The notes under the pieces were generated by a model. The model searched no databases, had not been told where the DNA came from, and saw only the letters and a list, made by a program, of their open reading frames with translations. A stretch of DNA of 23,489 nt from a virus: positions 1 to 23,489 of the IMG/VR virus record IMGVR_UViG_3300006117_000053; one strand, 5' to 3'. Made by a program: the position numbers and the translations under genes. Below are positions 1 to 22,227 of the stretch, one piece after another (within the stretch, counting starts at the first letter, position 1; each line of letters starts with the position of its first letter).

Positions 1-2
1 AT

Positions 3-182
3 ATGACTGAAGCAATCGGAGTTGACCCCCTGACCGAAGAACGTTCACCACTTTGGCTGTGCGACGAGCCGGAGTGTACGAGAGCAACGGAGCCGGGAAC
101 CCCGGATGCTGAGGATTGGCTTCCAACTGAAGAAGCCCACTTCTGCCCTAAGCACGCCAACCTGCGCTTCGGCGGGAAGTAA
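3..182 (+). CDS. Small unknown protein with Cys/His cluster (59 aa)
   Basis: A complete 59-residue frame opens with ATG two bases into the window and ends with a TAA that overlaps the methyltransferase ATG (TAATG). The true start could lie upstream, outside the window. The sequence is acidic and carries Cys20 and Cys25 (CDEPEC) and a later C-P-K-H near residues 48-51. This spacing could bind one zinc ion, as in small zinc-ribbon proteins common in phages. No family is recognised. The TAATG junction suggests translational coupling to the methyltransferase, so it may belong to the same functional unit. That link is inferred from position only. Confidence 0.6.
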   Translation: MTEAIGVDPLTEERSPLWLCDEPECTRATEPGTPDAEDWLPTEEAHFCPKHANLRFGGK

Positions 183-1123
183 TGCCACACGCTCGCATCC
201 TCGTGGGTGACGTGCGTACACGCTTGGCCGAAATCCCCGACGGCTCTGTCCGCACCTGCATCACTTCACCGCCCTACTTCGGGCTGCGTGACTATGGACA
301 CGATGGACAGATTGGCCTAGAGCAGACACCAGACGATTACGTCAATGAACTGGTGGAGGTATTCCGTGAGGTGCGCCGTGTGCTGTCTGACGATGGAACC
401 TTGTGGCTCAACCTTGGGGACAGTTATGCTGGCTCAGGAGTTGGTGGTGGTGGTAACCGTAAGGGCAATGAAAACGGTCAACACGACGCATTGAAAGCCC
501 TAGGCCGACCACCAGTGCCCACTGGCCTGAAGCCGAAAGACTTGATTGGCATACCTTGGCGCGTGGCGTTCGCACTTCAGCAAGACGGCTGGTATCTCCG
601 CAGCGACATCATCTGGCACAAGCCCAATCCGATGCCCGAGAGCGTCACCGACCGACCCACCAAGAGCCACGAGTATCTGTTTCTGCTCACCAAGTCGCCT
701 CGGTATTACTACGACCACGAGGCCATCAAAGAGGATGGCGTTATCCCTGCTGGCACAAAGGCGGCAAAGGGTTCTGCTGAAAGGCAGGGTCTAAAGGGGG
801 TCAATGCCCGACCACCCGAATACAAGGTCTATGACGGTAAGCGGAATAAGCGTGACGTATGGACTATCAACACTAAGCCCTTCAAAGGGGCGCACTTTGC
901 GGTGATGCCAGAGGCCCTTGCAGAGCCGTGCATCCTTGCTGGTTCAGCACCCGGCGACACGGTACTTGACCCGTTTGCTGGAAGTGGAACGGTGGCAGTC
1001 GTTGCGCTGCGCCACGGAAGGAACTTTGTTGGTACGGAACTCAACCCTGAGTACAGTGAAATCGCACAAAACCGTATCTACGATGATGCCCCAATGTTCT
1101 ACCAGATAGAGGTGGTCGAATGA
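182..1123 (+). CDS. DNA methyltransferase, N4-cytosine/N6-adenine type (beta-class order)
   Basis: This 313-residue protein carries the two hallmark motifs of the N6/N4 amino-methyltransferase family (Pfam N6_N4_Mtase). The catalytic motif IV is TSPPY at residues 28-32, and the SAM-binding motif I is DPFAGSGT at residues 263-270, followed by G-T-E-L near 284. Catalytic motif before SAM motif is the beta-class arrangement. The region between them, about 95-240, would hold the target recognition domain. S/T-P-P-Y is commonest in N4-cytosine enzymes, but the modified base cannot be fixed from sequence. No restriction endonuclease gene is adjacent, so it looks like an orphan phage methyltransferase, plausibly for protection from host restriction. 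The start is set by TAATG coupling to the preceding gene, and the end overlaps the next ATG (ATGA). Confidence 0.93.
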   Translation: MPHARILVGDVRTRLAEIPDGSVRTCITSPPYFGLRDYGHDGQIGLEQTPDDYVNELVEVFREVRRVLSDDGTLWLNLGDSYAGSGVGGGGNRKGNENGQHDALKALGRPPVPTGLKPKDLIGIPWRVAFALQQDGWYLRSDIIWHKPNPMPESVTDRPTKSHEYLFLLTKSPRYYYDHEAIKEDGVIPAGTKAAKGSAERQGLKGVNARPPEYKVYDGKRNKRDVWTINTKPFKGAHFAVMPEALAEPCILAGSAPGDTVLDPFAGSGTVAVVALRHGRNFVGTELNPEYSEIAQNRIYDDAPMFYQIEVVE

Positions 1124-1299
1124 CGTTTGACGAATGGCTGGAATTTGGAATTGCTTCGGGTTTCTGTACCCAGCAGTACTGCGCTTTCCACGATTTTCCA
1201 CCACTGACGGATGCCGAAGAAGCGTTGCTGGATGAAAATGACGAGATTTGCTACGGCGTTGTCCGGCTCGGAAGCCCAAGCGACTGGCTACAGGCGTGA
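1120..1299 (+). CDS. Small acidic unknown protein (59 aa)
   Basis: The ATG at 1120 overlaps the methyltransferase stop (ATGA) and the frame closes with a TGA that overlaps the GTG of the next gene (GTGA). The 59-residue product is acidic, starts MTFDEWLEFG and has three cysteines (residues 16, 21, 44) in no clear metal-binding spacing. No family is recognised. Tight coupling on both sides supports it as a real gene. Its role is unknown. Confidence 0.7.
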   Translation: MTFDEWLEFGIASGFCTQQYCAFHDFPPLTDAEEALLDENDEICYGVVRLGSPSDWLQA

Positions 1300-1523
1300 A
1301 GGCCATCGTTCATATTCACCAACAGAAAATCAAGAAGGGCGAACCAGCCATCATCGTTCGCACCTACAAAGGGGTTGCTCACTACAGTGAAATCCTCATC
1401 AACGGCCCGATGCGCCTCGTGCAGAGCGACACCCCGGACAAATGTGGCGCACGGGTTTGGATTGAAACCGACACCGAGTACATCACCCCAGTGAGCGACT
1501 TCATTCTCTTTGGGGAGCAGTAG
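1296..1523 (+). CDS. Small unknown protein (75 aa), GTG start
   Basis: I place the start at the GTG at 1296, which overlaps the previous stop as GTGA. An upstream in-frame ATG at 1248 lies inside the previous gene and would add 16 basic residues that look like out-of-frame translation. The 75-residue product (KAIVHIHQQKIKKGEPAIIV at its start) looks like a small beta-rich domain. A similar layout of short strands ending in an acidic tail is common in phage accessory proteins, but I recognise no family. It ends where the next GTG begins (TAGTG overlap). Confidence 0.7.
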   Translation: MKAIVHIHQQKIKKGEPAIIVRTYKGVAHYSEILINGPMRLVQSDTPDKCGARVWIETDTEYITPVSDFILFGEQ

Positions 1524-1708
1524 TGCTGGGCGAAGGTGAAAAACGGCTAGTCAGCCTTTGGTATGGGAACGGTTTCTACGCCAAGGTCTACGAAGAAGCC
1601 GACGGCTCGTTCCACGCATTTTTCACTACGCCCGACTTTGACAACATTGCCGACGCACTCCAGTTTGTGGATAGGATTGCCGTCATTCTCCTTGGGGGTT
1701 TGGAATAG
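1523..1708 (+). CDS. Small unknown protein (61 aa), GTG start
   Basis: A GTG start overlaps the previous stop (TAGTG), and its own stop overlaps the next GTG in the same way. The 61-residue product predicts as a short beta-beta-alpha domain: KRLVSLWYGNGFYAKVYEE followed by a helix around DALQFVDRIAVILL. No family is recognised. Its coupling in a chain of five consecutive overlapping genes supports expression with the methyltransferase. Confidence 0.65.
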   Translation: MLGEGEKRLVSLWYGNGFYAKVYEEADGSFHAFFTTPDFDNIADALQFVDRIAVILLGGLE

Positions 1709-1851
1709 TGGATTGTCCGCACGAATGGCAACTCATCGCAGTAGGAAGCAAGGTGTGGGTGAACTGCAAGAACTGCACGAAGCGGTTCCCGTTCACCACC
1801 GAGTTCAATGGAACGCCCTACAAGGGGCCTATTCCCGAAAGGTACCGATGA
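1708..1851 (+). CDS. Zinc-ribbon-like mini-protein (47 aa), GTG start
   Basis: The frame starts at GTG 1708 (TAGTG overlap) and stops at a TGA overlapping the ATG of the next gene (ATGA). The 47-residue product contains C-P-H-E-W at residues 3-7 and C-K-N-C at residues 20-23. C-x-H plus C-x2-C is the ligand pattern of a small zinc ribbon. The same motif style recurs in the proteins at 2584-2976 and 19103-19339. Nucleic-acid or protein binding is likely for such domains, but its role is unknown. Confidence 0.65.
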   Translation: MDCPHEWQLIAVGSKVWVNCKNCTKRFPFTTEFNGTPYKGPIPERYR

Positions 1852-2132
1852 GGAAGAAAGAACTGAAGGCGTTGGTGGAAACCACCCGAAGGGATTTGGA
1901 AACCTGCCACCAGTTGCTCTACAAGTACGCCGAAGACATTGACAAGTTGATTCAGCACACCGTCACAACGGACAACAAGATTGCCGAAATCGAAAAGGAG
2001 AAAGACGTACTTCGCTACGCTTTTCACCTCGCCACTGGTCGGCTCGCAGCGCATCAAGGCATTGACTTCGACAACATCTCGGCCTTTGCCGACGCACTCA
2101 TCTCCGAGGCAGAGCAAGACGCTCAGGATTGA
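1848..2132 (+). CDS. Coiled-coil small protein (94 aa)
   Basis: The ATG at 1848 overlaps the preceding stop. The first about 70 residues are strongly helical and charged (MRKKELKALVETTRRDLETC, then a heptad-like KIAEIEKEKDVLRYAFHL), typical of a coiled coil. The C-terminus is acidic. An alternative longer frame from 1563 runs through two other genes out of frame and is rejected. It is the last gene of the coupled cluster and is followed by a 451-base gene-free region. Function is unknown. Confidence 0.72.
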   Translation: MRKKELKALVETTRRDLETCHQLLYKYAEDIDKLIQHTVTTDNKIAEIEKEKDVLRYAFHLATGRLAAHQGIDFDNISAFADALISEAEQDAQD

Positions 2133-2199
2133 ATTGCAGTTGGCTGGCCAAGCCTTGGTAATCAGGGGACTGCTACTCCCATACCTATCTGTATATGCC

Positions 2200-2368
2200 A
2201 AAATCACCATCCGATAGGCAATGGTTCTTTTTATACGGCTTCCAACCTTGTCACCCAAGGTAGGAAATTTTGGATGGTGACTTCCAAAGAACCGTAAGTG
2301 GCAACCTGTCTTCTGACAACGCTCGTGGCTTAATGCCCTTTTTACCGTCGCCACGCCGACGTGCTTCC
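2200..2368 (-). ncRNA. Candidate structured non-coding RNA, minus strand
   Basis: A consensus-like minus-strand promoter (2375-2403) predicts a start near 2368. The stretch transcribed leftwards is unusually rich in complementary segments. These are a 9-base pair 2204-2212 with 2272-2280, an 8-base pair 2223-2230 with 2286-2293, a hairpin 2240-2266 (6 bp plus 4 bp around one mismatch, 5-base loop), and 2234-2238 with 2292-2296. The first two helices cross, giving a pseudoknot or a switch between two folds. On the minus strand the 9-base arm at 2212-2204 is followed directly by TTTT (2203-2200, ending UUUUGG in the RNA), so it could act as a terminator. No open frame of coding quality starts downstream of the predicted start. 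It matches no RNA family I recognise. The boundaries are inferred. Confidence 0.5.
2240..2266. other. Hairpin inside candidate ncRNA
   Basis: The arms 2240-2243 and 2245-2250 pair with 2263-2266 and 2256-2261, interrupted by one mismatch at 2244/2262, with loop 2251-2255. On the minus strand the loop reads GGTGA, which is complementary to the TCACC at the start of the 9-base arm 2280-2272. A loop-to-arm contact is therefore possible. Confidence 0.6.
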
Positions 2369-2374
2369 AAACAC

Positions 2375-2403
2375 AGTATACCAACCCCACTACAGGGTGT
2401 CAA
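2375..2403 (-). promoter_or_regulatory. Strong sigma70-type promoter, minus strand
   Basis: Read on the minus strand, TTGACA (2403-2398) is followed by a 17-base spacer and TATACT (2380-2375). That is a perfect -35 hexamer, ideal spacing and a 5/6 match to TATAAT. It faces left, against every gene in the window, and no minus-strand gene follows, so an RNA product is the simplest reading. Confidence 0.72.
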
Positions 2404-2410
2404 GAGAAAT

Positions 2411-2443
2411 GACGAAGCGGCCCGTTGGAGAGGCCGCCTCGTC
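2411..2443. other. Long hairpin (12-bp arms, one mismatch)
   Basis: The arms 2411-2422 (GACGAAGCGGCC) and 2432-2443 (GGCCGCCTCGTC) pair with a single A/C mismatch around a 9-base loop. On the minus strand the stem is followed by ATTTCTCTT, which is weakly terminator-like. On the + strand no T-run follows. It lies just upstream of the minus-strand -35 box, so a terminator, an operator or a structural role are all possible. Confidence 0.6.
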
Positions 2444-2479
2444 GGTACTTCTGGTGTTGGTTAACGCAGCATTGCAGTA

Positions 2480-2523
2480 CTTCGGGTTAGGGCTTGGCAG
2501 ACTGTCTGCCAACCGAAGCCCCG
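2480..2523. other. Nested hairpin with competing outer stems
   Basis: A perfect 8-bp hairpin TTGGCAGA/TCTGCCAA (2494-2501 with 2505-2512, loop CTG) is enclosed by two alternative outer stems. CTTCGG (2480-2485) can pair with CCGAAG (2513-2518), or GGGCTT (2490-2495) can pair with AAGCCC (2516-2521). It lies between the divergent promoters, so it may be an operator or attenuator. No T-run follows. Confidence 0.55.
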
Positions 2524-2548
2524 TTATCGTATCCACTTCAGCAGAGGT

Positions 2549-2577
2549 TTGCAACAACACACTCAACCCTGTACGGT
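2549..2577 (+). promoter_or_regulatory. Promoter of the LexA-like gene (leaderless geometry)
   Basis: TTGCAA (2549-2554) is followed by a 17-base spacer and TACGGT (2572-2577). The ATG at 2584 lies 7 bases after the last base of the -10 box, where transcription should begin, and no ribosome binding site is present. This indicates a leaderless transcript. Confidence 0.55.
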
Positions 2578-2583
2578 AGTGAA

Positions 2584-2976
2584 ATGCGAACGAAACCGAA
2601 CACGCCACCCCGTCGTAAAGACGCAGAGATTCTTCGCTACATCGCTTGGCACTGTAGGGAGATGGGGTTTTCACCATCCATCCGAAGTATCTGCACTGCG
2701 ACAGGAATTCGGAGTACATCAACGGTTCAGCAGATGCTGGTCAGAATGGAAGTCGAAGGCCGGATTCGCCGTGACGGGTACAAGCGCACCGTCATCACTG
2801 TCCAAGATGTTGACCCGGAGTTCTGCCAGCACGACTGGCGCATCACCAACAAAGATTGCATTGCCCTCGGAGAGGCGTTGGTGGAATGTCTGCACTGCCA
2901 TCGGAGTACAGCCGTTGAGTTCCACCCGGATTGGAACGACTTAGAAACTTGCCCACGCTACACGGGTCAAGTGTAG
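2584..2976 (+). CDS. LexA-like winged-helix DNA-binding protein with C-terminal zinc-ribbon, no peptidase
   Basis: Residues about 12-65 match the LexA N-terminal winged-helix domain: a first helix (AEILRYIAWHCREMGFSPSI), the recognition region R-S-I-C-T-A-T-G-I-R-S-T-S-T-V, and the wing G-R-I-R-R-D. LexA itself is near 200 residues and ends in an S24 autopeptidase. This 130-residue protein instead ends in a Cys/His-rich tail, with C-Q-H-D-W near residue 80, C-L-H-C near 105 and a last Cys near 123. It is therefore probably a stable transcriptional regulator not subject to RecA-stimulated self-cleavage. The start at 2584 fits a promoter 7 bases upstream. A TTG at 2494 in the same frame would read through the hairpin region and is rejected. 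It stands divergent to the candidate ncRNA and could control it and the phage operators. Confidence 0.8.
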   Translation: MRTKPNTPPRRKDAEILRYIAWHCREMGFSPSIRSICTATGIRSTSTVQQMLVRMEVEGRIRRDGYKRTVITVQDVDPEFCQHDWRITNKDCIALGEALVECLHCHRSTAVEFHPDWNDLETCPRYTGQV

Positions 2977-2992
2977 GCAAACTAAATATCTG

Positions 2993-3001
2993 TGCTAACC
3001 T
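2993..3001 (+). promoter_or_regulatory. Candidate extended -10 promoter
   Basis: TG-C-TAACCT (2993-3001) fits an extended -10 element (TGnTAnnnT) directly after the LexA-like gene. No -35 box is seen. Transcription would start near 3008, giving a short leader that holds a CCCTAGTAGGG palindrome and the ribosome binding site of the 3032 gene. Confidence 0.4.
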
Positions 3002-3012
3002 ATGTGCAGCAA

Positions 3013-3023
3013 CCCTAGTAGGG
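3013..3023. repeat. CTAG-type palindrome before 3032 gene
   Basis: CCCTA-G-TAGGG is a perfect 5-bp inverted repeat around one base, lying just after the predicted transcription start near 3008. It is one of at least seven CTAG/CCCTA-type palindromes sitting in intergenic gaps of this window. Confidence 0.55.
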
Positions 3024-3031
3024 AGTTGAGG

Positions 3032-3265
3032 ATGAGTTCACTGAACGAATTGGCCGAGAGGATTGCCAAGGAAATGACCCTTGGTACGCCGAACGACGAA
3101 GACTTGCACAACCTTGTCCAAAAGGCACTGACCCAGCAGGATGCCCTTGCGCGGCTGGCCAGTGAAAACGAAGCACTGACCAAGCAGGTGGCCGACCTCA
3201 CTGCTCGCTTGGAATCCATTGAGCCGTTCACCCACCTCGTGCAGTACGCAGAGGGTTCTGCCTGA
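3032..3265 (+). CDS. Small coiled-coil protein (77 aa)
   Basis: I choose the ATG at 3032 because GGGAG lies 7 bases upstream. The in-frame ATG at 3002 would begin inside the promoter region and encode the palindrome. The 77-residue product has a helical N-terminus (SLNELAERIAKEM) and a heptad-rich stretch, ALARLASENEALTKQVADLT, ending in IEPFTHLVQYAEGSA. It looks like a small coiled-coil protein. The function is unknown. Its TGA overlaps the next ATG (TGATG), so the two are coupled. Confidence 0.72.
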   Translation: MSSLNELAERIAKEMTLGTPNDEDLHNLVQKALTQQDALARLASENEALTKQVADLTARLESIEPFTHLVQYAEGSA

Positions 3266-3522
3266 TGTGGCCGTTCACCAAGTCCCGGCTTGTGTGGAAG
3301 AAGGGCGAGTTCAACGAATTTGAAGCAGTAGACGAGCCGTATCGCTACGTCGTTTGGTCGGGGAATGGAATCACCGAACTGCGCCTCATCCAGCGTGAGC
3401 AGTTCAACGGCATTGGTATGCCGTTCCAAGATTTCAGCATCTACACCCGTGACATTGACGCTGCGTTCGCTTTGGCCGAAGAAGTCAACAAGTTGATTCG
3501 TAAGGCTCGCCGGTACAAGTAA
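3265..3522 (+). CDS. Small unknown protein (85 aa)
   Basis: The start is fixed by the TGATG overlap with the upstream gene. The 85-residue product is mixed alpha/beta, starts MWPFTKSRLVWKK, and ends in a basic helix (FALAEEVNKLIRKARRYK). The aromatic beta-rich centre (YRYVVWSGNGITELRLIQR) suggests a compact fold. I recognise no family. Confidence 0.7.
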   Translation: MWPFTKSRLVWKKGEFNEFEAVDEPYRYVVWSGNGITELRLIQREQFNGIGMPFQDFSIYTRDIDAAFALAEEVNKLIRKARRYK

Positions 3523-3536
3523 ACGTCACACCGTTC

Positions 3537-3545
3537 TGCTATGGT
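3537..3545 (+). promoter_or_regulatory. Extended -10 promoter of the nuclease gene
   Basis: TG-C-TATGGT (3537-3545) is an extended -10 element. The chosen ATG at 3553 is 8 bases after it and lacks a ribosome binding site, which fits a leaderless or near-leaderless mRNA. The ATG at 3541 lies within the -10 box and is therefore unlikely to be the start. Confidence 0.45.
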
Positions 3546-3552
3546 GGAACGT

Positions 3553-4350
3553 ATGTCCTCAACCCCTGTTTATCTCGGTGAGAAGCCCGACGGAGTATCA
3601 CCAAGTCGGGTAAGCCAATTCAAAAACTGCCCTCGCCAGTACCAGTACGTCTCGGTGGAGAGACTGCCAGAGAAGAAGGGTGAGGCTGCATACCGGGGAA
3701 CTATCTTCCACGCCGTGCTGGAAAACCTGTTCCGTGACGAAGCCCCCGAAGACCGGACAGTGGACAATGCGATGAAGCACTTCCGTTCGCTCTATCGGGA
3801 ATATATGACCCCCGAAGCGATTGAAGAACTTGGCTTCGATGAAATCCGTGTGCAGAAGTACGCTGCCGAAATCACCAAGTTGATTCGCACCTACTTCACG
3901 ATGGAAGACCCCAGTTCGATTGACGTGGTTTCCACCGAAATCCGTTTGGACTTGGATATGGGCGACTTTGGCCTGCGAGGAATCATTGACCGGCTAGACC
4001 GGCTCCCAGATGGCACACTCGCCATCCGTGACTACAAGACCGGCAAGGTTCCAAAGCCCCGGTACGAATCCAAGGCATTGGAAGCGTGTCAGGTGTACGC
4101 CTACCTGTGCGAAAAGGTTTACGGTGAACGGCCCAGCGTGATGAGCCTTATCTACGTCAAGGATGCAGTCACCATCGAAAAAACCGTGACGGACATTGAC
4201 ATCCGGGATGCTGAAACTCGTGTGCGTTCCGTGTGGGCAGCCATTGAGCGAGCCTACGAGACTTCCAATTTTCCAGCACAGCCATCCATCCTGTGCAACT
4301 GGTGTTCGTTCCAACAACGCTGCCAAGAGGACAACTACTCCGTCTTCTAG
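3553..4350 (+). CDS. Cas4/RecB-family PD-(D/E)XK nuclease with Fe-S cysteines
   Basis: This 265-residue protein has the signatures of the RecB/Cas4 branch of PD-(D/E)XK nucleases (Pfam PDDEXK_1). They are an early S-x-S-x-V-x-x-F-x-x-C-P with Cys26, the motif-I histidine H53 in RGTIFHAVLE, the metal-binding D146 in RGIIDRLD, and D160/K162 in IRDYKTGK. A C-terminal cluster Cys248, Cys251, Cys257 (C-x2-C-x5-C) together with Cys26 would hold a 4Fe-4S cluster, as in Cas4 and AddB. Such phage enzymes act as DNA exonucleases in recombination or replication. All key residues are present. The start at 3553 follows an extended -10 box, with an alternative ATG four codons upstream. Confidence 0.9.
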   Translation: MSSTPVYLGEKPDGVSPSRVSQFKNCPRQYQYVSVERLPEKKGEAAYRGTIFHAVLENLFRDEAPEDRTVDNAMKHFRSLYREYMTPEAIEELGFDEIRVQKYAAEITKLIRTYFTMEDPSSIDVVSTEIRLDLDMGDFGLRGIIDRLDRLPDGTLAIRDYKTGKVPKPRYESKALEACQVYAYLCEKVYGERPSVMSLIYVKDAVTIEKTVTDIDIRDAETRVRSVWAAIERAYETSNFPAQPSILCNWCSFQQRCQEDNYSVF

Positions 4351-11297: not shown

Positions 11298-14200
11298 ATG
11301 GCTCGCACCCCTTATACACAGAACTCATACGTCGGTGGAGCATACGCTGCCACGCTGACGGGGAGCATCAACAGTTCTACGTCAACGATTTCACTGACGT
11401 TTTCCGGGACGCAGTACTCATCGTGGACTGGCCTCGGCATCGCCACTTCACCAAGTGGAGCGACGGCCAACGCTGGTTTCTTCCTGTCCATTGACTACAA
11501 CTCGGCCTCTGAAGAAAAGGTCTGGGTTCCAGCGCAGACGATTTCGTGGACTACTTCTCCTATCACGCTCACTGGGGTTGTCCGTGGTCAAGACGGGACA
11601 TCAGCAGTAAGCCACCTTGCTACGGCTGCCGTCATCCCTGTTCTGACAGCCTCTGACATTTCAGAAGGCAACTACACGGTAAGCCAGACCGTTGGCCAAG
11701 TTCAGGCAGTCGGAGACATCCTCTACGGTTCAACGGCTCAGGCGTTCAGCAGGCTTCCAATTGGTTCTGCCGGGCAGGTTTTGGTTGCAGGCACGACTGG
11801 GCCGTTCTGGTCAACAACGAACACCAATGCCCACTCATCAGTGATTGTGGCTGACTTTGGTACCGGGGCAGCAGTCCTTGTCGGCACCAATGCTTCGTAC
11901 ACAGCCGGTACTACCGATGCCAGTGGTGGTTTGGGTATCGGCGCAAGAATCACGGGAAACAGCACGGGAACGCTGACAATTGACGGGGTGGGTCTGACTG
12001 GTTCCTACGCTAACTCCCGTGTGTTGATTGCTGGAAACACCAGCACGCAATCTAAGTACAACGGCATTTACACGCTCACTACCGTTGGAAATACCACCAC
12101 TCCCTACGTCCTCACCCGTGCAACTGACTACAACGACAGCATTGCTGGCGAGGTTGCTCCCGGTGACTACGTTCTTACGATTCAAGGAAGTTCCTACGCA
12201 GGCCGAACGTTTGTAATGAACGCCACTGGCTCCGGTGCTAGTGGAATCACCATTATTGGAACCGACCCCATCACTTGGGTGCAATCCGGTGGTGTCGGCC
12301 CGACAGGGCCTACTGGCCCTACCGGTGCTGGTGGCACACTAGGCTACTACGGTTCATTTTACGACACCACCACGCAGTCAGTAGGTTCTGCCAACACGCC
12401 TACGGCAATGACCTTCAACACCACGGCGGAGAACAACGGTGTCTCCATCACCAGCAGCAGCCACATTTTGTTTGCCAACGCCGGAACCTACAACGTGCAG
12501 TTCTCGGCGCAACTCACGCAGACCGATAACAGCATTGACCAAGTGCAGATTTGGCTCCGCAAGAACGGCAGCGACCTCACAGAGACCAACACCACGGTCA
12601 CGATGGACAAGCAGAACAGCGACAAAGTTGCCTCGTGGAACTTTGTGCTTACCGTCGCAGCCAACGATTACTTGCAACTTATGTGGGAATCTAATTCCAC
12701 GAGTGTGACGTTACTGGCTCAATCTGCGGGTAGCAATTACCCTGCTACGCCTTCCATCATCTTGACCGTACAGCAAGTGATGTACACCCAGATTGGCCCT
12801 ACAGGGGCCACAGGTGCCACTGGAGCCACTGGAGCCACCGGCCCGACTGGTGCTGGCTACTCAGGTGTCACTTCAACCTCTACGGTCAACCTCGGCACGG
12901 GAAGCGCAGTTTTTTCCGGTATCACCTCAACCGGGGCGTTCCAAATTGGACAGCGCGCTCGTGCCATCTCTACGGCGAACACGAGCCAATACGTTGAAGG
13001 CACCATCACGGCGTTGACGGCCAATACGTCAATCACCATCAACGTAGATACGTTCGCTGGTTCGGGCAGCCCGTCATCGTGGTCTATTGCCGTTGCTGGA
13101 AACGTTGGCAACACCGGGGCAACCGGGGCAACTGGAGCAACAGGTGCAACTGGAGCAACCGGGGCAACTGGTGCTACAGGAGCAACGGGTGCGACGGGTG
13201 CAAGTGGTTCGTTTGGAACAGCAAACGCTCCACTCTCCCTCTCTGGCACGACGCTTTCCATTTCCAATGCTACGACGGGTGCAAGTGGTGTAATCACGCT
13301 CGGCGGCGACCTCAACGCAACGGGTTCGACGGCAGGAACTCCCCGTGTCGGTTCGTGGCAAGGACAAGCCTTCACCACCGGAACAACGGCTGGTCAAGTT
13401 TACATCTTCAGTGGCACAACTTGGGCAGCCACTTCCCTTTCTGGCGACGTAACGGTTTCGGCTGCTGGAACTGCCACCCTTGCCACAACCGGCCCCGGCG
13501 CAGGCACTTACGGCTCATCGGGTTCGACTATCTCCCACGCCATTATTTCACTAGACGCAAAGGGTCGGGTCACAGGTGCAACATCAAGTCCTGCAAGTCT
13601 CGTCGCAGGTGTTCTAAACGCAACAAGCGCAACAACTTGGACTGCCTCGGCATCTGATAACGGACAGTTCGTTCGCTTCAGCAGCACAGTCGTTGTGACC
13701 CTTCCGGCAACGGCTCCTTCAGCCCCTTGGCTTGCCACCTATTACGGCTCAGGCTCGCTCACGATTACACCAAGTTCGCCAGCGACGCTCAACGGTTTGT
13801 CATCGTCGTATTACCTATCGTCGGGTATTCCAGCACTGGTTTGGACAGACGGAACCAACTACTTCGTGCAGCCATCTATTTCAACAGGAAACTGGACCGC
13901 TACTTCCTATCTGAACGCAACTCAATACATCACTGCTGCGAATACACTTCTCACCCTCGGCAACAAGGCGGTCTATAACGGAACCGTATCAACGGCACTG
14001 ACCCTCAACTCTGCTTCAACAAACAACTACATTCCGCAAATCCTCGTCAATGGCTCTACCCAGACGGTTTACCTCTTGCCGAATGGACAGGTGACGGGTT
14101 CACCAAGCATCCTCAACGCTTACGGCACGACCTATGCGGGCTATGTCGTTGGGGTTGGCGGCATTTCCACCAACGGAACCATTTGGACAGTCACGACTGG

Positions 14201-15503
14201 AACAACCCACAACTTCTTGACCGGGCAGACAGTTTACCTTGGTGGCATTTCTGCCGGTGGCTCTACTGCCTACAACGGTTCGTTTACGATTGCCTCTACA
14301 GGTGCAACCAACACTTTCACCATCGCAAATACGGCTCAACCCGGTGCAGTCACTTTCGCTGGCACTGCAACCGTGCAACCCTTCCCCCTTCCAGCAGGAG
14401 GGGCAGTTTCGTATCAAGGCATCAGCGGTTCAACTAATGCAGTCTGGCTCACTGGTTCCAATCCGCAAACGCTCTCTGGTGATGTGACGGTTGGCAATAC
14501 AGGAGCAGCCACGGTCAACAAGGTTCAGGGTGTAGCAATCAGCGGAACGCCTTCTGCTGGTCAAGTTCTGACGGCTTCAGCAACAAACGCTGCATCGTGG
14601 TCGGCACAGTCAAGTGTCACGGTCCTTTCCACCACGGGAGGAACGGGAACTGCTGGCACGACAGGAACCTACACGGTGCCTTCTTGGGCTACCAACCTTC
14701 ACGTCATCTGCGTTGGTGGTGGAGGTGGGGGTGCAGGTGGTGGATACTTTGCAGGGACAACCGGCTACGCCAGTGGGGGCGTTGGCGGGAATGGTGGAAA
14801 TGCCACAATTATTGACATTCCTGTCACCGCGTCCCTTATCTCTTCGGGTATTCCTTACGGCATCGGTGGTGGTGGAACTGGAGGGACTTGTGCCTCATCA
14901 ACGACAACTTCTGGTGCTGCTGGGGGAACGGGAGCGACTACCTACTTCGGCTCAACAAACGCTGCGACCAACTCCTACTGCTACGCCAGTGGTGGGGTGG
15001 GTGGTTCGACTGGTGGAAAGTTCAATACTTCATCATTCATCTACAACTTCCAAGGTGTGGTCACCAACGCTCAGACTTCGGGAAACGTTCTCTACGGTGG
15101 CGTTGGGGGCTATGGGGGAACTGGAGGAACTGCTGGTGTTGCTGGAACCAATGCTCAGCAGGGAACCCTTGGTGGCTTCACTGGAGGCGGTGGAGGCGGT
15201 GGAGGATGCAGTTTCAACACTGGCAACTCCAACGGTGGGGCTGGTGGAAAGCCAGACATCTCGCCCGGTATGTCCACCGTTGGTGCTGGTGGTGTTGTTT
15301 CTGGTTCGGCAGCCACGAGTGGAAGCACCTTTGGATACGCTTCGCCGGGTGCCGGTGGTGGAAACGGCAACAACACTCCAACTCCAGCAGGAGCCAACGG
15401 AGTTTACGGTGGAGGTGGAGGTGGAGGCGGTGCTGCTGCCAACACAACAACTGGCGTTGGTGGAAATGGTGGCGCAGGCTACATCGTTGTTATTGCGACC
15501 TAA
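11298..15503 (+). CDS. Large collagen-like, glycine-rich fibre/adhesin (1401 aa)
   Basis: The 1401-residue protein is a modular fibre. Residues 1-130 are a beta-rich anchoring domain. Collagen-like tracts of G-x-T triplets occur at 334-345, 500-520 and 604-637, the last with about ten G-A-T repeats; they would trimerise into triple helices. Between them and from 640 to 1100 are repeated beta segments of the phage-fibre kind (L-S-G-D-V-T-V-x-x-x-G-x-A-T appears twice, near 715 and 1056). Residues about 1108-1401 are a glycine-rich domain with runs such as VGGGGGGAGGG, like the polyglycine-helix tips of phage adhesins such as S16 gp38. There it binds the host receptor. A role in host recognition is likely. 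The location among head-side genes leaves open a head or neck fibre. Confidence 0.88.
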   Translation: MARTPYTQNSYVGGAYAATLTGSINSSTSTISLTFSGTQYSSWTGLGIATSPSGATANAGFFLSIDYNSASEEKVWVPAQTISWTTSPITLTGVVRGQDGTSAVSHLATAAVIPVLTASDISEGNYTVSQTVGQVQAVGDILYGSTAQAFSRLPIGSAGQVLVAGTTGPFWSTTNTNAHSSVIVADFGTGAAVLVGTNASYTAGTTDASGGLGIGARITGNSTGTLTIDGVGLTGSYANSRVLIAGNTSTQSKYNGIYTLTTVGNTTTPYVLTRATDYNDSIAGEVAPGDYVLTIQGSSYAGRTFVMNATGSGASGITIIGTDPITWVQSGGVGPTGPTGPTGAGGTLGYYGSFYDTTTQSVGSANTPTAMTFNTTAENNGVSITSSSHILFANAGTYNVQFSAQLTQTDNSIDQVQIWLRKNGSDLTETNTTVTMDKQNSDKVASWNFVLTVAANDYLQLMWESNSTSVTLLAQSAGSNYPATPSIILTVQQVMYTQIGPTGATGATGATGATGPTGAGYSGVTSTSTVNLGTGSAVFSGITSTGAFQIGQRARAISTANTSQYVEGTITALTANTSITINVDTFAGSGSPSSWSIAVAGNVGNTGATGATGATGATGATGATGATGATGATGASGSFGTANAPLSLSGTTLSISNATTGASGVITLGGDLNATGSTAGTPRVGSWQGQAFTTGTTAGQVYIFSGTTWAATSLSGDVTVSAAGTATLATTGPGAGTYGSSGSTISHAIISLDAKGRVTGATSSPASLVAGVLNATSATTWTASASDNGQFVRFSSTVVVTLPATAPSAPWLATYYGSGSLTITPSSPATLNGLSSSYYLSSGIPALVWTDGTNYFVQPSISTGNWTATSYLNATQYITAANTLLTLGNKAVYNGTVSTALTLNSASTNNYIPQILVNGSTQTVYLLPNGQVTGSPSILNAYGTTYAGYVVGVGGISTNGTIWTVTTGTTHNFLTGQTVYLGGISAGGSTAYNGSFTIASTGATNTFTIANTAQPGAVTFAGTATVQPFPLPAGGAVSYQGISGSTNAVWLTGSNPQTLSGDVTVGNTGAATVNKVQGVAISGTPSAGQVLTASATNAASWSAQSSVTVLSTTGGTGTAGTTGTYTVPSWATNLHVICVGGGGGGAGGGYFAGTTGYASGGVGGNGGNATIIDIPVTASLISSGIPYGIGGGGTGGTCASSTTTSGAAGGTGATTYFGSTNAATNSYCYASGGVGGSTGGKFNTSSFIYNFQGVVTNAQTSGNVLYGGVGGYGGTGGTAGVAGTNAQQGTLGGFTGGGGGGGGCSFNTGNSNGGAGGKPDISPGMSTVGAGGVVSGSAATSGSTFGYASPGAGGGNGNNTPTPAGANGVYGGGGGGGGAAANTTTGVGGNGGAGYIVVIAT
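12297..12332 (+). repeat. Collagen-like tract 1 in fibre gene
   Basis: Codons 334-345 encode G-P-T-G-P-T-G-P-T-G-A-G. The triplet phase is kept with glycine in each first place, as in collagen-like phage fibres. Confidence 0.85.
12795..12857 (+). repeat. Collagen-like tract 2 in fibre gene
   Basis: Codons from 500 encode G-P-T, then G-A-T repeats, G-P-T and G-A-G. The DNA is an imperfect 9-base repeat of the GGNGCCACN type. Confidence 0.85.
13107..13208 (+). repeat. Collagen-like tract 3 with 9-base DNA repeat
   Basis: Codons 604-637 encode G-N-T followed by about ten G-A-T triplets. The DNA is a nearly perfect 9-base tandem repeat (GGNGCAACN), so it is a place for slippage and length variation. 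Wobble differences between copies limit exact repeats. Confidence 0.88.
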
Positions 15504-20227: not shown

Positions 20228-20443
20228 ATGGCTAAGGCTGCACCGAAGTCCTACCAAGTCACCGACAAGTCGCCCCTTACCTACAACGGTAAGCGGGCTA
20301 TGCCCAGTGACGTGGTGACGGATATCCCCGGCGAGGACATTTCGTGGCTTCTTGAAGGTGGCTACATCGTTCCTGTCGAATCAGCACCTGAGCCAGACGT
20401 GGATGCTAGCGAGCCTGCCCCTGCGACTACCGAGGCCAACTAA
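20228..20443 (+). CDS. Small phage protein upstream of the tail proteins (71 aa)
   Basis: GAAGGG precedes the ATG, and the TAA overlaps the ATG of the major tail protein (TAATG). The 71-residue product has a compact motif (VTDKSPLTYNGKRAMPSDVV, then I-P-G-E-D-I-S-W-L-L-E-G-G-Y-I) common in small phage proteins near head-tail genes, followed by a Glu/Pro/Ala tail. Its function is unknown. Coupling to the tail protein suggests a structural or assembly role. Confidence 0.68.
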   Translation: MAKAAPKSYQVTDKSPLTYNGKRAMPSDVVTDIPGEDISWLLEGGYIVPVESAPEPDVDASEPAPATTEAN

Positions 20444-21444
20444 TGCCGATTTTCCAGCACGGTAAGAATACTCGCACCATCCTCACGGTTCCAAATTCGA
20501 CGGCAGGCACGTTCACTGGCACGGCCACCAACAGCAGTTATTACTTGACTGGCGTAGTCACCTCGTTCGGCTTGACGGTTGGAATGGTCATCACGTCTCC
20601 CTCAGACCTGTCGTGGTCGGCAGTCATCACCTCAATCGGTTCCAACTCCGTAATGCTTAACGCCACGCCGAGTTCGGGTGTCTACAGCGCAACGGCCCCA
20701 CAGGTTTTCACTGTGCTTCTGCCCCAAGTTTCGGCTGGAGTGACCGGAATTGGCTACGACCTCTCCCAATTTCTGAACGATGCCAGCATCAGCCAGATGA
20801 TTGACGCTACTGAAACCACCACGTTCCAAACCGGTGGCAGTAAGTCCTACATTCAAGGGTTGAAGGAAGGCACCGTCAGTCTGTCCGGCTTCTATGACGG
20901 AACACCAGCCGGTATTGACCCAATTATGTACAGGACTGCCAACCTCGCAGCCAACAAGTCCGTTCTTATCTTCCTTGATGGTGGAAACAACGCTACCCCG
21001 GCAGTTTGCTATATGGCCAACGGTGTCCAAACTAAGTACGACTTGAAGTCGCCAGTTGCCGGTGTTGTTAGTGCTGATATGGAACTTCAGGCCGATGGTG
21101 GCGTGTGGCGTGGATACGGCCAGTACATCACTTCGGGAACCACCAGCCTCATTGCAGCAGCCACGGTCAACAACAACTTTTCCACCTCAAAGGGTGGGCT
21201 GTTGATTATGGGCGTTTCGTCGGCCAACGGCAACTCCGGTTCTTCGTTGCTGGAATTCCAAACCTCGCCAACCGGCTCAGTGTGGACAACGGTGGAAACG
21301 CTGACTGTTGACGCTTCAACCTCTTACGGGATTGGTGCAGTCGCCATCAACCTCGTTGGAACCATCCCGCAGTACACCCGCCTGTACTACTCCGTCGGAA
21401 GCGGAGTGACAGCCAACATCTACTACGGGTTCGCCCGCTTCTAG
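20443..21444 (+). CDS. Major tail protein paralogue A, with C-terminal extension
   Basis: The 333-residue protein shares with its neighbour at 21457 the start M-P-I-F-x-H-G-K-N, the central S-x-F-x-N-D-A-x-x-x-x-x-I-D-A-x-E-T-T-T-F and K-x-Y-I-Q-G-L-K, and the late T-K-Y-D-L-K-S-x-V-x-G-V-V. These fit a phage tail-tube protein, and the gene order before the chaperones supports that. Residues about 23-92 are a beta insert (FGLTVGMVITSPSDLSWSAV, then I-T-S-I-G-S-N-S-V-M-L-N). The last about 105 residues, after the shared core, form an extra beta domain, likely exposed on the tail surface. Only one of the two may be the tube's main subunit. Confidence 0.8.
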   Translation: MPIFQHGKNTRTILTVPNSTAGTFTGTATNSSYYLTGVVTSFGLTVGMVITSPSDLSWSAVITSIGSNSVMLNATPSSGVYSATAPQVFTVLLPQVSAGVTGIGYDLSQFLNDASISQMIDATETTTFQTGGSKSYIQGLKEGTVSLSGFYDGTPAGIDPIMYRTANLAANKSVLIFLDGGNNATPAVCYMANGVQTKYDLKSPVAGVVSADMELQADGGVWRGYGQYITSGTTSLIAAATVNNNFSTSKGGLLIMGVSSANGNSGSSLLEFQTSPTGSVWTTVETLTVDASTSYGIGAVAINLVGTIPQYTRLYYSVGSGVTANIYYGFARF

Positions 21445-21456
21445 AAGGAGATAGCA

Positions 21457-22227
21457 ATGCCCATTTTCAATCACGGTAAGAACGCGTTTCTGGCCCTCGG
21501 ATACGAGTTGTCCGGTTCCACCTACGCAACCTGCACCCTGACCAGTTCCTCGTCGCTCTCCAGCGTTTTAGTGCCTGCTGGCACCCTGCTCGCTGGTGGT
21601 GCCGGTGCTTACGGCAGCCCGTCAATGCTCGCTGGTTCGACGGCCACCTATGGTGTGTTCGCTGGTGGAATCCCCGGCTACACGACCACCCAAATCACGA
21701 GCAGCAGCACGAGCGTCACGCTGGCTGAATCGGCAATTGGTGGAACCGGTGTCCTGCCTGCCGTTGGTACGGCTGGCGTTCCGCTTCTGCCGATGGTGAA
21801 CATCTCGCCATTTATCAACGACGCTGGACTTCCGGTTGCCATTGACGCAAGCGAAACCACGACGTTCAGCCAAGCCGGTGTGAAGACCTACATTCAGGGT
21901 CTGAAGGGCTACTCGCTTACGTTTGCTGGTATGTACGACCAGACTGCTGCTGGTGCAACCTCGGCTGCCGATGGCGTTGCTGGTGGAATTGACTACATCG
22001 TTTACTGTATGGAGAACTGGCAGAACATTGCTGGAAACTTCGTTCAGTTCGTGTACGGCCCGTCTGACCCCGGCCAGTTCGTTCTTGGTTCGGCTGGTGT
22101 GCCATCCATCAAGTACTTCGGCCAAGGCGTTTTCACCAAGTACGACCTGAAGTCATCGGTCAACGGCGTTGTGACGTTCGACGGTGAAATCCAAGTGACA
22201 GGCCCCGTGTATCGGACTATCCTCTAG
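21457..22227 (+). CDS. Major tail protein paralogue B
   Basis: AAGGAG precedes the ATG. The 256-residue protein shares the core of the 20443 product but lacks its C-terminal domain. Its sequence ends at G-P-V-Y-R-T-I-L shortly after the shared segment T-K-Y-D-L-K-S-S-V-N-G-V-V. It has its own N-terminal beta insert around residues 20-100. It has the stronger ribosome binding site and is the simpler tube protein, so it is likely the main one. Its gene runs up to the tail assembly chaperones. Confidence 0.82.
   Translation: MPIFNHGKNAFLALGYELSGSTYATCTLTSSSSLSSVLVPAGTLLAGGAGAYGSPSMLAGSTATYGVFAGGIPGYTTTQITSSSTSVTLAESAIGGTGVLPAVGTAGVPLLPMVNISPFINDAGLPVAIDASETTTFSQAGVKTYIQGLKGYSLTFAGMYDQTAAGATSAADGVAGGIDYIVYCMENWQNIAGNFVQFVYGPSDPGQFVLGSAGVPSIKYFGQGVFTKYDLKSSVNGVVTFDGEIQVTGPVYRTIL

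Follow-up and report, generated by a model that had tools for sequence, protein, structure and literature searches.

A Pistol self-cleaving ribozyme at the front of a probable phage small RNA gene running against its neighbours

Introduction

The locus considered here raises a simple question, namely what could be made from a consensus-like promoter that faces leftward, against every likely gene of a phage genome, into a stretch where no gene is apparent. The DNA analysed as a whole, hereafter the window, comes from a virus record 23,489 bases long (IMGVR_UViG_3300006117_000053) whose likely genes, the reading frames being judged by eye, all run rightward and include those for a DNA methylase, small proteins, a LexA-type protein, a PD-(D/E)XK exonuclease and the major head protein. 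Elsewhere in the window and also by eye, positions 11298-15503 encode a possible tail fibre, 1401 residues long and containing collagen-like GAT/GPT repeats, and positions 20443-21444 and 21457-22227 encode adjacent proteins both starting with MPIFxHGKN, perhaps duplicated tail proteins. A sequence-only reading of the locus had proposed a phage small RNA encoded against the gene direction and possibly folded through two long crossing helices. As presented below, the proposal of a small RNA gene is retained, whereas the structural element that now defines the locus is a different one.

A leftward promoter in a stretch without likely genes

A small gene stops at 2132, and the next likely gene, which runs rightward at 2584-2976 and encodes a protein with a DNA-binding domain of LexA type, comes about 450 bases later. 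The interval between that stop and a terminator-like hairpin, i.e. 2133-2410, measures 278 nt and has a G+C content of 0.49 vs. 0.55 for the window. Within it, on the minus strand, lies a sigma70-type promoter (2375-2403) with the -35 box TTGACA at 2403-2398, a 17-nt spacer and an extended -10 box TATACT at 2380-2375. The promoter announced by the sequence-only reading is thus present, and in a consensus scan it reaches 11/12 to consensus with the extended -10 TG, a match found nowhere else in the 23,489 bases when both strands are scanned, which makes it the best of the window. Taking transcription to start about 7 nt past the -10 box, the RNA would be expected to begin around 2368.

The terminator-like hairpin (2411-2443, minus strand) stands directly upstream of this promoter and is also found in a relative devoid of the ribozyme described below (L181). 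Read leftward, from 2443 to 2411, it scores as a terminator in both the window and this relative, and could insulate the promoter from leftward transcription arriving from further upstream. Of note, the region 2411-2519 contains two hairpins kept at the DNA level in the same relative. In the first of them, as far as can be judged by eye, both pairs that differ are G-U on the minus strand and A-C on the plus strand, which hints that another RNA may be made leftward. In that relative the scan also lists a promoter-like site facing left.

A full-length Pistol ribozyme at the predicted RNA start

The first part of the expected RNA belongs to a known class. An Rfam covariance-model search matched positions 2361-2300 of the minus strand to the Pistol self-cleaving ribozyme (RF02679) over the full length of the model (positions 1-68 of 68), with 50.5 bits for a gathering score of 34.5 and an E value of 1.1e-6, and none of 14 control genomes was matched. 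The earlier statement that no known family fits the locus was therefore wrong, since the match clears the cut-off of 34.5 bits, and from its sequence 2361-2300 is almost certainly a Pistol ribozyme. The match starts 13 nt downstream of the -10 box, so that the ribozyme would begin about 7 nt into the transcript.

The Pistol architecture, in which the P1 loop forms a pseudoknot with the junction of P2 and P3, is found at the locus. Its three stems, with coordinates read off the alignment, are P1 (2361-2358/2349-2346), P2 (2337-2334/2303-2300) and P3 (core 2318-2315/2310-2307), and no pair in the stems of the model is flagged there as non-standard. The pseudoknot, spanning 2324-2355 on the minus strand, joins 2355-2350 (CGUGGC) to 2329-2324 (GCCACG) by six exact base pairs; it is the well-supported pseudoknot of the locus and lies upstream of the arms named in the sequence-only reading. 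The catalytic and core residues of the class are listed as purine 32, G33, G40, C41 and G42 (PMC6154101, in part), and once the numbering is mapped to the window all of the core is there, as A2330, G2329, G2322, C2321 and G2320, together with the GU at 2305-2304. Pistol cleavage is described as falling within the GU that links P3 and P2 (PMC4604425, in part), and the alignment places the predicted site on the minus strand between G2305 and U2304 (2304-2305). Folded by itself, the ribozyme has a nested minimum-energy structure that differs from the active Pistol fold. Separately, a second, HDV-like ribozyme sharing the crossing topology was considered and rejected, as Rfam over 2050-2650 (E up to 1) returned Pistol only.

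Two alleles and a broken minus-strand frame

The ribozyme is found in all eight contigs (8/8) whose exonuclease is 100% identical. Over 1501-3300, five contigs have the sequence of the window and three (L003, L005, L009) carry a second allele, hereafter allele 2, with five differences: 2030C>T, an insertion at 2196, 2227C>T, 2637C>T and 2847C>T. None of these falls in the promoter or the ribozyme, an invariance that carries little weight given just five differences per 1800 bases.

The alleles bear directly on the notion that the leftward RNA encodes a small protein. A minus-strand frame of 190 codons is indeed open at 2390-1818, and would be the obvious candidate, but its start codon lies upstream of the expected RNA start, a Pfam search of the frame returned no match at E 0.01, and the 1-nt insertion at 2196 frame-shifts and stops it in allele 2. 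A coding explanation for the minus strand is rejected on the frameshift and the lack of a Pfam match, and a small protein, being largely refuted, is left with almost no probability. The region thus appears free of any plausible gene, as had been claimed, and the long minus-strand frame is not conserved since it is broken in allele 2. With a promoter of its own, predicted from the consensus, and no conserved coding frame, the unit has two of the features expected of a small RNA gene.

Folding of the RNA downstream of the cleavage site

The 3' cleavage product was folded as 2304-2176 on the minus strand, 2176 being the folding limit and not a mapped 3' end. At -39.3 kcal/mol (z -2.65) it is stable to a degree equalled by 1 of 200 shuffles. 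Its favoured nested fold is a three-way arrangement (2234-2296) with pair probabilities of 0.75-1.0, made of a closing helix (2296-2291/2239-2234), a hairpin (2288-2283/2274-2269) and a hairpin whose core is 2261-2256/2250-2245. The last of these and the closing helix are respectively the hairpin and the competing helix that the sequence-only reading had pointed out, and both are recovered.

The 9-base and 8-base helices of that reading are exact in the sequence and do cross, the first pairing 2280-2272 with 2212-2204 (span 2204-2280, minus strand) and the second 2293-2286 with 2230-2223 (span 2223-2293, minus strand). It had been suggested that they form a pseudoknot, or else a terminator/antiterminator switch controlling leftward transcription. 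Over 2200-2299, a crossing pair of at least 9 and at least 8 bp occurs in 0 of 2000 dinucleotide shuffles when restricted to Watson-Crick pairs, but in 158 of 2000 once G-U is allowed, and the same test over 2200-2368 gives 2/2000 and 860/2000, respectively. The 9-bp helix extends to 13 bp with G-U pairs, reaching 2200, is unchanged in allele 2, is followed by TTTT, and its 13-bp version is contained in the minimum-energy fold of an RNA terminating at 2200. Against this, the T run is just four long, the longer RNA is dominated by other pairings, both long helices having a pair probability of 0.00-0.01 in the nested ensemble of 2304-2176, and in allele 2, i.e. in three of the eight near-identical contigs, 2227C>T puts a C-A mismatch in the 8-bp helix and takes its duplex energy from -8.1 to -2.5 kcal/mol. 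With the 8-bp helix broken in this way and nested folding favouring other pairings, the suggested long-range pseudoknot is doubtful, and control by crossing helices, either as a pseudoknot or as a switch, is improbable. The 9-bp helix could still serve as a loop-loop contact.

The positions of the allele differences favour the three-way fold, without proving it, since base 2227 falls in an unpaired linker of that fold and the 2196 insertion falls beyond it, either within the loop of an additional hairpin (centroid structure) or in a small inner helix of 3 bp (minimum-energy structure). The 129-nt product stretch accounts for two of the five differences and so does not look like one under strong constraint. 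Covariation was to be sought in the arms of the crossing helices, and no homologue able to show it was found. BLAST among 50,697 phage records detected no homologue of the product outside this phage species, and a covariance model of the product, run on 69 of 249 loci together with the window, on 31 further loci and on 13 viral records, matched the window itself and four records of its species, and detected no other homologue; a single weak match (L286, E 1.7) was taken as chance. For want of a homologue outside this phage species, the product fold stands without covariation support.

The 3' end and antisense transcription

The sequence-only reading had the RNA end in a pairing arm followed by TTTT. 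The TTTT is present (2203-2200), but nothing at this place makes a convincing terminator: the consensus scan lists none, and the candidate 3' end consists of just the long-range helix and then the T run. In the scanned region 1-3600, no minus-strand terminator-like site was found left of the ribozyme, and the leftward RNA may consequently be longer and purely antisense.

This leads to the alternative of a long antisense transcript that would pair with the rightward mRNA from the upstream genes or interfere with it; the Pistol ribozyme would then only set the transcript's 5' end, and the fold would be incidental. The minus strand from 2300 to 1 without a terminator-like site would suit such a transcript, as would the rightward course, judged by eye, of the likely genes to the left. 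On the other hand, the promoter, the ribozyme and the fold come as a discrete gain that ends beside the stop codon of the left gene, and the product is more stable than 199 of 200 shuffles. Long antisense transcription is accordingly seen as rather unlikely, and a small RNA gene headed by the ribozyme is retained as the preferred reading.

A segment gained in one phage species

Relatives of the window were gathered by similarity of the exonuclease and of the LexA-type protein. In two of them (L181 and L183, at 72% identity in the exonuclease), the same place holds a small gene that stops 8 nt before a hairpin homologous to 2411-2443, where the window has 278 nt, so that about 270 nt are missing. 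That small gene is a homologue of the one in the window in a single comparison (25% over 88 residues, E 2e-8), a homology not detected by tblastn at 0.01. In L179, also at 72% exonuclease identity, a small gene without detectable homology to that of the window is followed by the LexA-type gene with no such gap, and the hairpin is missing. No Pistol was found in L179-L183, in 13 loci at 51-54% identity, one of which (L012) ends short of the site, or in 11 further loci.

Because a relative lacks these ~270 nt between matching flanks, the cassette looks gained, and from the sequences compared the promoter, the ribozyme and the body look like one segment acquired in this phage species. Such a gain might also be a dead one, a Pistol-bearing piece brought in by recombination and carried neutrally; its restriction to one phage species and the variation between alleles inside the product stretch would agree with this. 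It is nevertheless a full-length ribozyme with an intact core, located beside the best promoter of the window, and promoter and ribozyme are the same in both alleles (a lesser argument, as already said), all of which makes a dead insertion unlikely. As for the host, 79 of the best 80 exonuclease relatives from genome contigs, out of at least 450 confirmed, bear actinobacterial names, and the host is probably actinobacterial, as far as can be judged from exonuclease identities of just 34-40%.

Other Pistol ribozymes behind a promoter

Among the surveyed Pistols, TTGACA is found just upstream of the ribozyme in four cases, i.e. the species of the window, L282, L300 and L313. In the three latter, the approximate Pistol start comes 7 to 11 nt after a -10 box. 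The cited site is listed by the consensus scan for the window and L300 only; L282 has a poor -10 box and its promoter is not listed, and the site cited for L313, TTGACA-15-TATAGT with a 15-nt spacer, differs from the one its scan lists. The claim of a shared architecture is therefore weaker for L282 and L313.

L282 (2308-2560) and L300 (8429-8690) have a Pistol-led noncoding RNA in common, with a conserved closing stem and, at the end, a 17-bp terminator hairpin followed by a T run (z -5.6 and -6.9). In a four-helix model drawn from both sequences, 19 of 19 pairs hold and two are compensated, a result reached by 117 of 500 shuffles, and the two compensated pairs are by themselves a weak argument for the structure. 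Compared with shuffles, the nested fold of the L282 body is no better (z -0.07), and that of L300 with its terminator is better (z -2.58). Pistol is the only Rfam family over its cut-off in this RNA, the terminator part of L300 giving a sub-threshold match to NsiR1 (E 0.4), and the product model of the window has no match in these loci. The L282 RNA sits upstream of replication genes. L301 (1169-1230) and L313 (24-85) have the Pistol and much of the following sequence in common, L313 being cut off by the contig end.

Taken together, these loci might tentatively be seen as a loose family of phage small RNAs, a possibility to which we give less than even confidence, where a promoter-Pistol front (the ribozyme at the start or within ~7 nt of it) would be joined to swappable bodies, acquired as cassettes of ~270 nt, and would give exact 5'-OH ends. 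The window, L282/L300 and perhaps L313 would, equally tentatively, represent three bodies on one front end.

Genomic context of viral Pistols

Pattern scans of viral contigs gave 65 stretches outside this species, of which 61 were covariance-searched and the other four had duplicate cores; Pistol was over the cut-off in 23/24 and 31/37 records of the two search batches. The survey of their context, which relies on crude open-frame calls with no gene finder, leaves out L040, L042, L047 and L055 (core duplicating another locus), L037 (unmatched) and further repeats of one core, as well as six of the 37 loci of the second batch, four unmatched and two under the cut-off; one of its 47 rows (L025) sits at a contig edge. 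By this crude measure, 35 of the 47 distinct viral Pistols have the same orientation as most of the frames around them, and the other 12, among them that of the window, do not. A same-strand frame starts within 250 nt downstream for 24 of the 47, and for 37 of 46 the core is preceded, at a distance of 7 to 61 nt, by the end of an open frame of at least 60 codons, this upstream frame being spurious for the window and perhaps also for L300 and L313. A frame ending just ahead of most cores is what cutting between genes would lead one to expect, within the limits of these crude frame calls.

In two loci, a Pistol lies ~170-190 nt upstream of a same-strand tRNA-Met(cat) gene (L024 at 1492-1571 and L041 at 523-599). 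Besides, the isolated Curtobacterium phage Ayka (ON381767.1, L347) contains at 1129-1208 an unannotated Pistol of 62.1 bits between the genes for the ssDNA-binding and terminal proteins, and the words 'ribozyme' and 'non-coding' are absent from the main text of the corresponding paper (PMC9502298). Two overlapping sets of actinobacterial genomes gave no Pistol (0/396 and 0/396) with 12 candidates scored per genome, counts that do not amount to a demonstration of absence.

A ribozyme-capped small RNA gene

Our preferred answer to the question raised at the outset, which is considered fairly probable, is that the minus strand carries a phage small RNA gene capped by a ribozyme and running against the other genes. 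The small RNA originally claimed is thus still the best reading of the locus, the computation supporting the identity of the ribozyme, the placement of the promoter next to it, the stability of the product fold, the lack of a kept reading frame and, in a relative, an empty site. That the unit is transcribed, that the RNA is cut in the cell, that it then has a 5'-OH end and that it has any regulatory role is what we infer. RNA polymerase would start leftward about 7 nt ahead of the Pistol ribozyme, which would fold while emerging and cut between G2305 and U2304. The discarded 5' piece, with its 5' triphosphate, would be the ribozyme itself (~64 nt), and the remaining folded RNA would start with UUGCC at U2304 and bear a 5' hydroxyl. 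Self-cleavage in this class gives a 2',3'-cyclic phosphate on one piece and the 5'-OH on the other, and the ribozyme would in effect be a built-in means of fixing where a noncoding RNA begins. This RNA would most likely be regulatory or structural, acting in trans or against the rightward transcripts of the phage itself. Enzymes that act on 5' triphosphates or monophosphates do not usually target a 5'-OH, and such an end might lengthen the lifetime of the product.

Many phage Pistols lie between genes, and mRNA cutting is the natural guess for their role; to our knowledge, their purpose is not settled. In the window and at least one other phage pair, the Pistol ribozyme appears to front a noncoding RNA with its own promoter, which turns the matter into a testable question, that is whether self-cleavage gives a small RNA with a 5'-OH and thereby alters its lifetime or its targets. 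If the loose family is true, the ribozyme would give each of its RNAs a precise 5'-OH, a kind of end not made by ordinary transcription. A compact promoter-ribozyme cassette would also offer an easy way to produce RNAs whose 5' ends are exact. No description of a phage Pistol heading a gene for a small or antisense RNA was found in the literature, as covered by titles and the first part of abstracts, a search that does not prove novelty; the ribozyme class is known and the setting seems new.

Comparison with known systems

The locus shares with the described Pistol class (RF02679) the core, P1, P2, P3, the 6-bp pseudoknot, the GU junction and the phage setting (PMC4604425, in part). Whereas 35 of the 47 distinct viral Pistols surveyed lie sense by the crude measure used here, the one in the window would head its own transcription unit against the genes. 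Prophage hammerheads are likewise self-cleaving ribozymes in phage DNA and are proposed to divide long transcripts into mRNAs the length of an operon or a gene (PMC3088659, in part), whereas the ribozyme of the window is not followed by a plausible same-strand protein gene and its product appears noncoding. The theta (HDV-like) ribozymes beside phage tRNAs are also phage ribozymes proposed to process a noncoding RNA (PMC10879173, in part), but they belong to a different class and would serve tRNA 3' trailers, while that of the window would serve the 5' end of an unrelated RNA. With the glmS ribozyme the locus would have in common a 3' product bearing a 5' hydroxyl; glmS, though, is a ribozyme of an mRNA leader, and since in B. 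subtilis RNase J1 degrades the product with its 5'-OH (PMC11780869, in part), the stability of the phage product is not to be assumed. In L282/L300, a TTGACA promoter, a Pistol at the very 5' end and then a noncoding RNA follow one another as in the window, but the product sequence is different and has a strong terminator.
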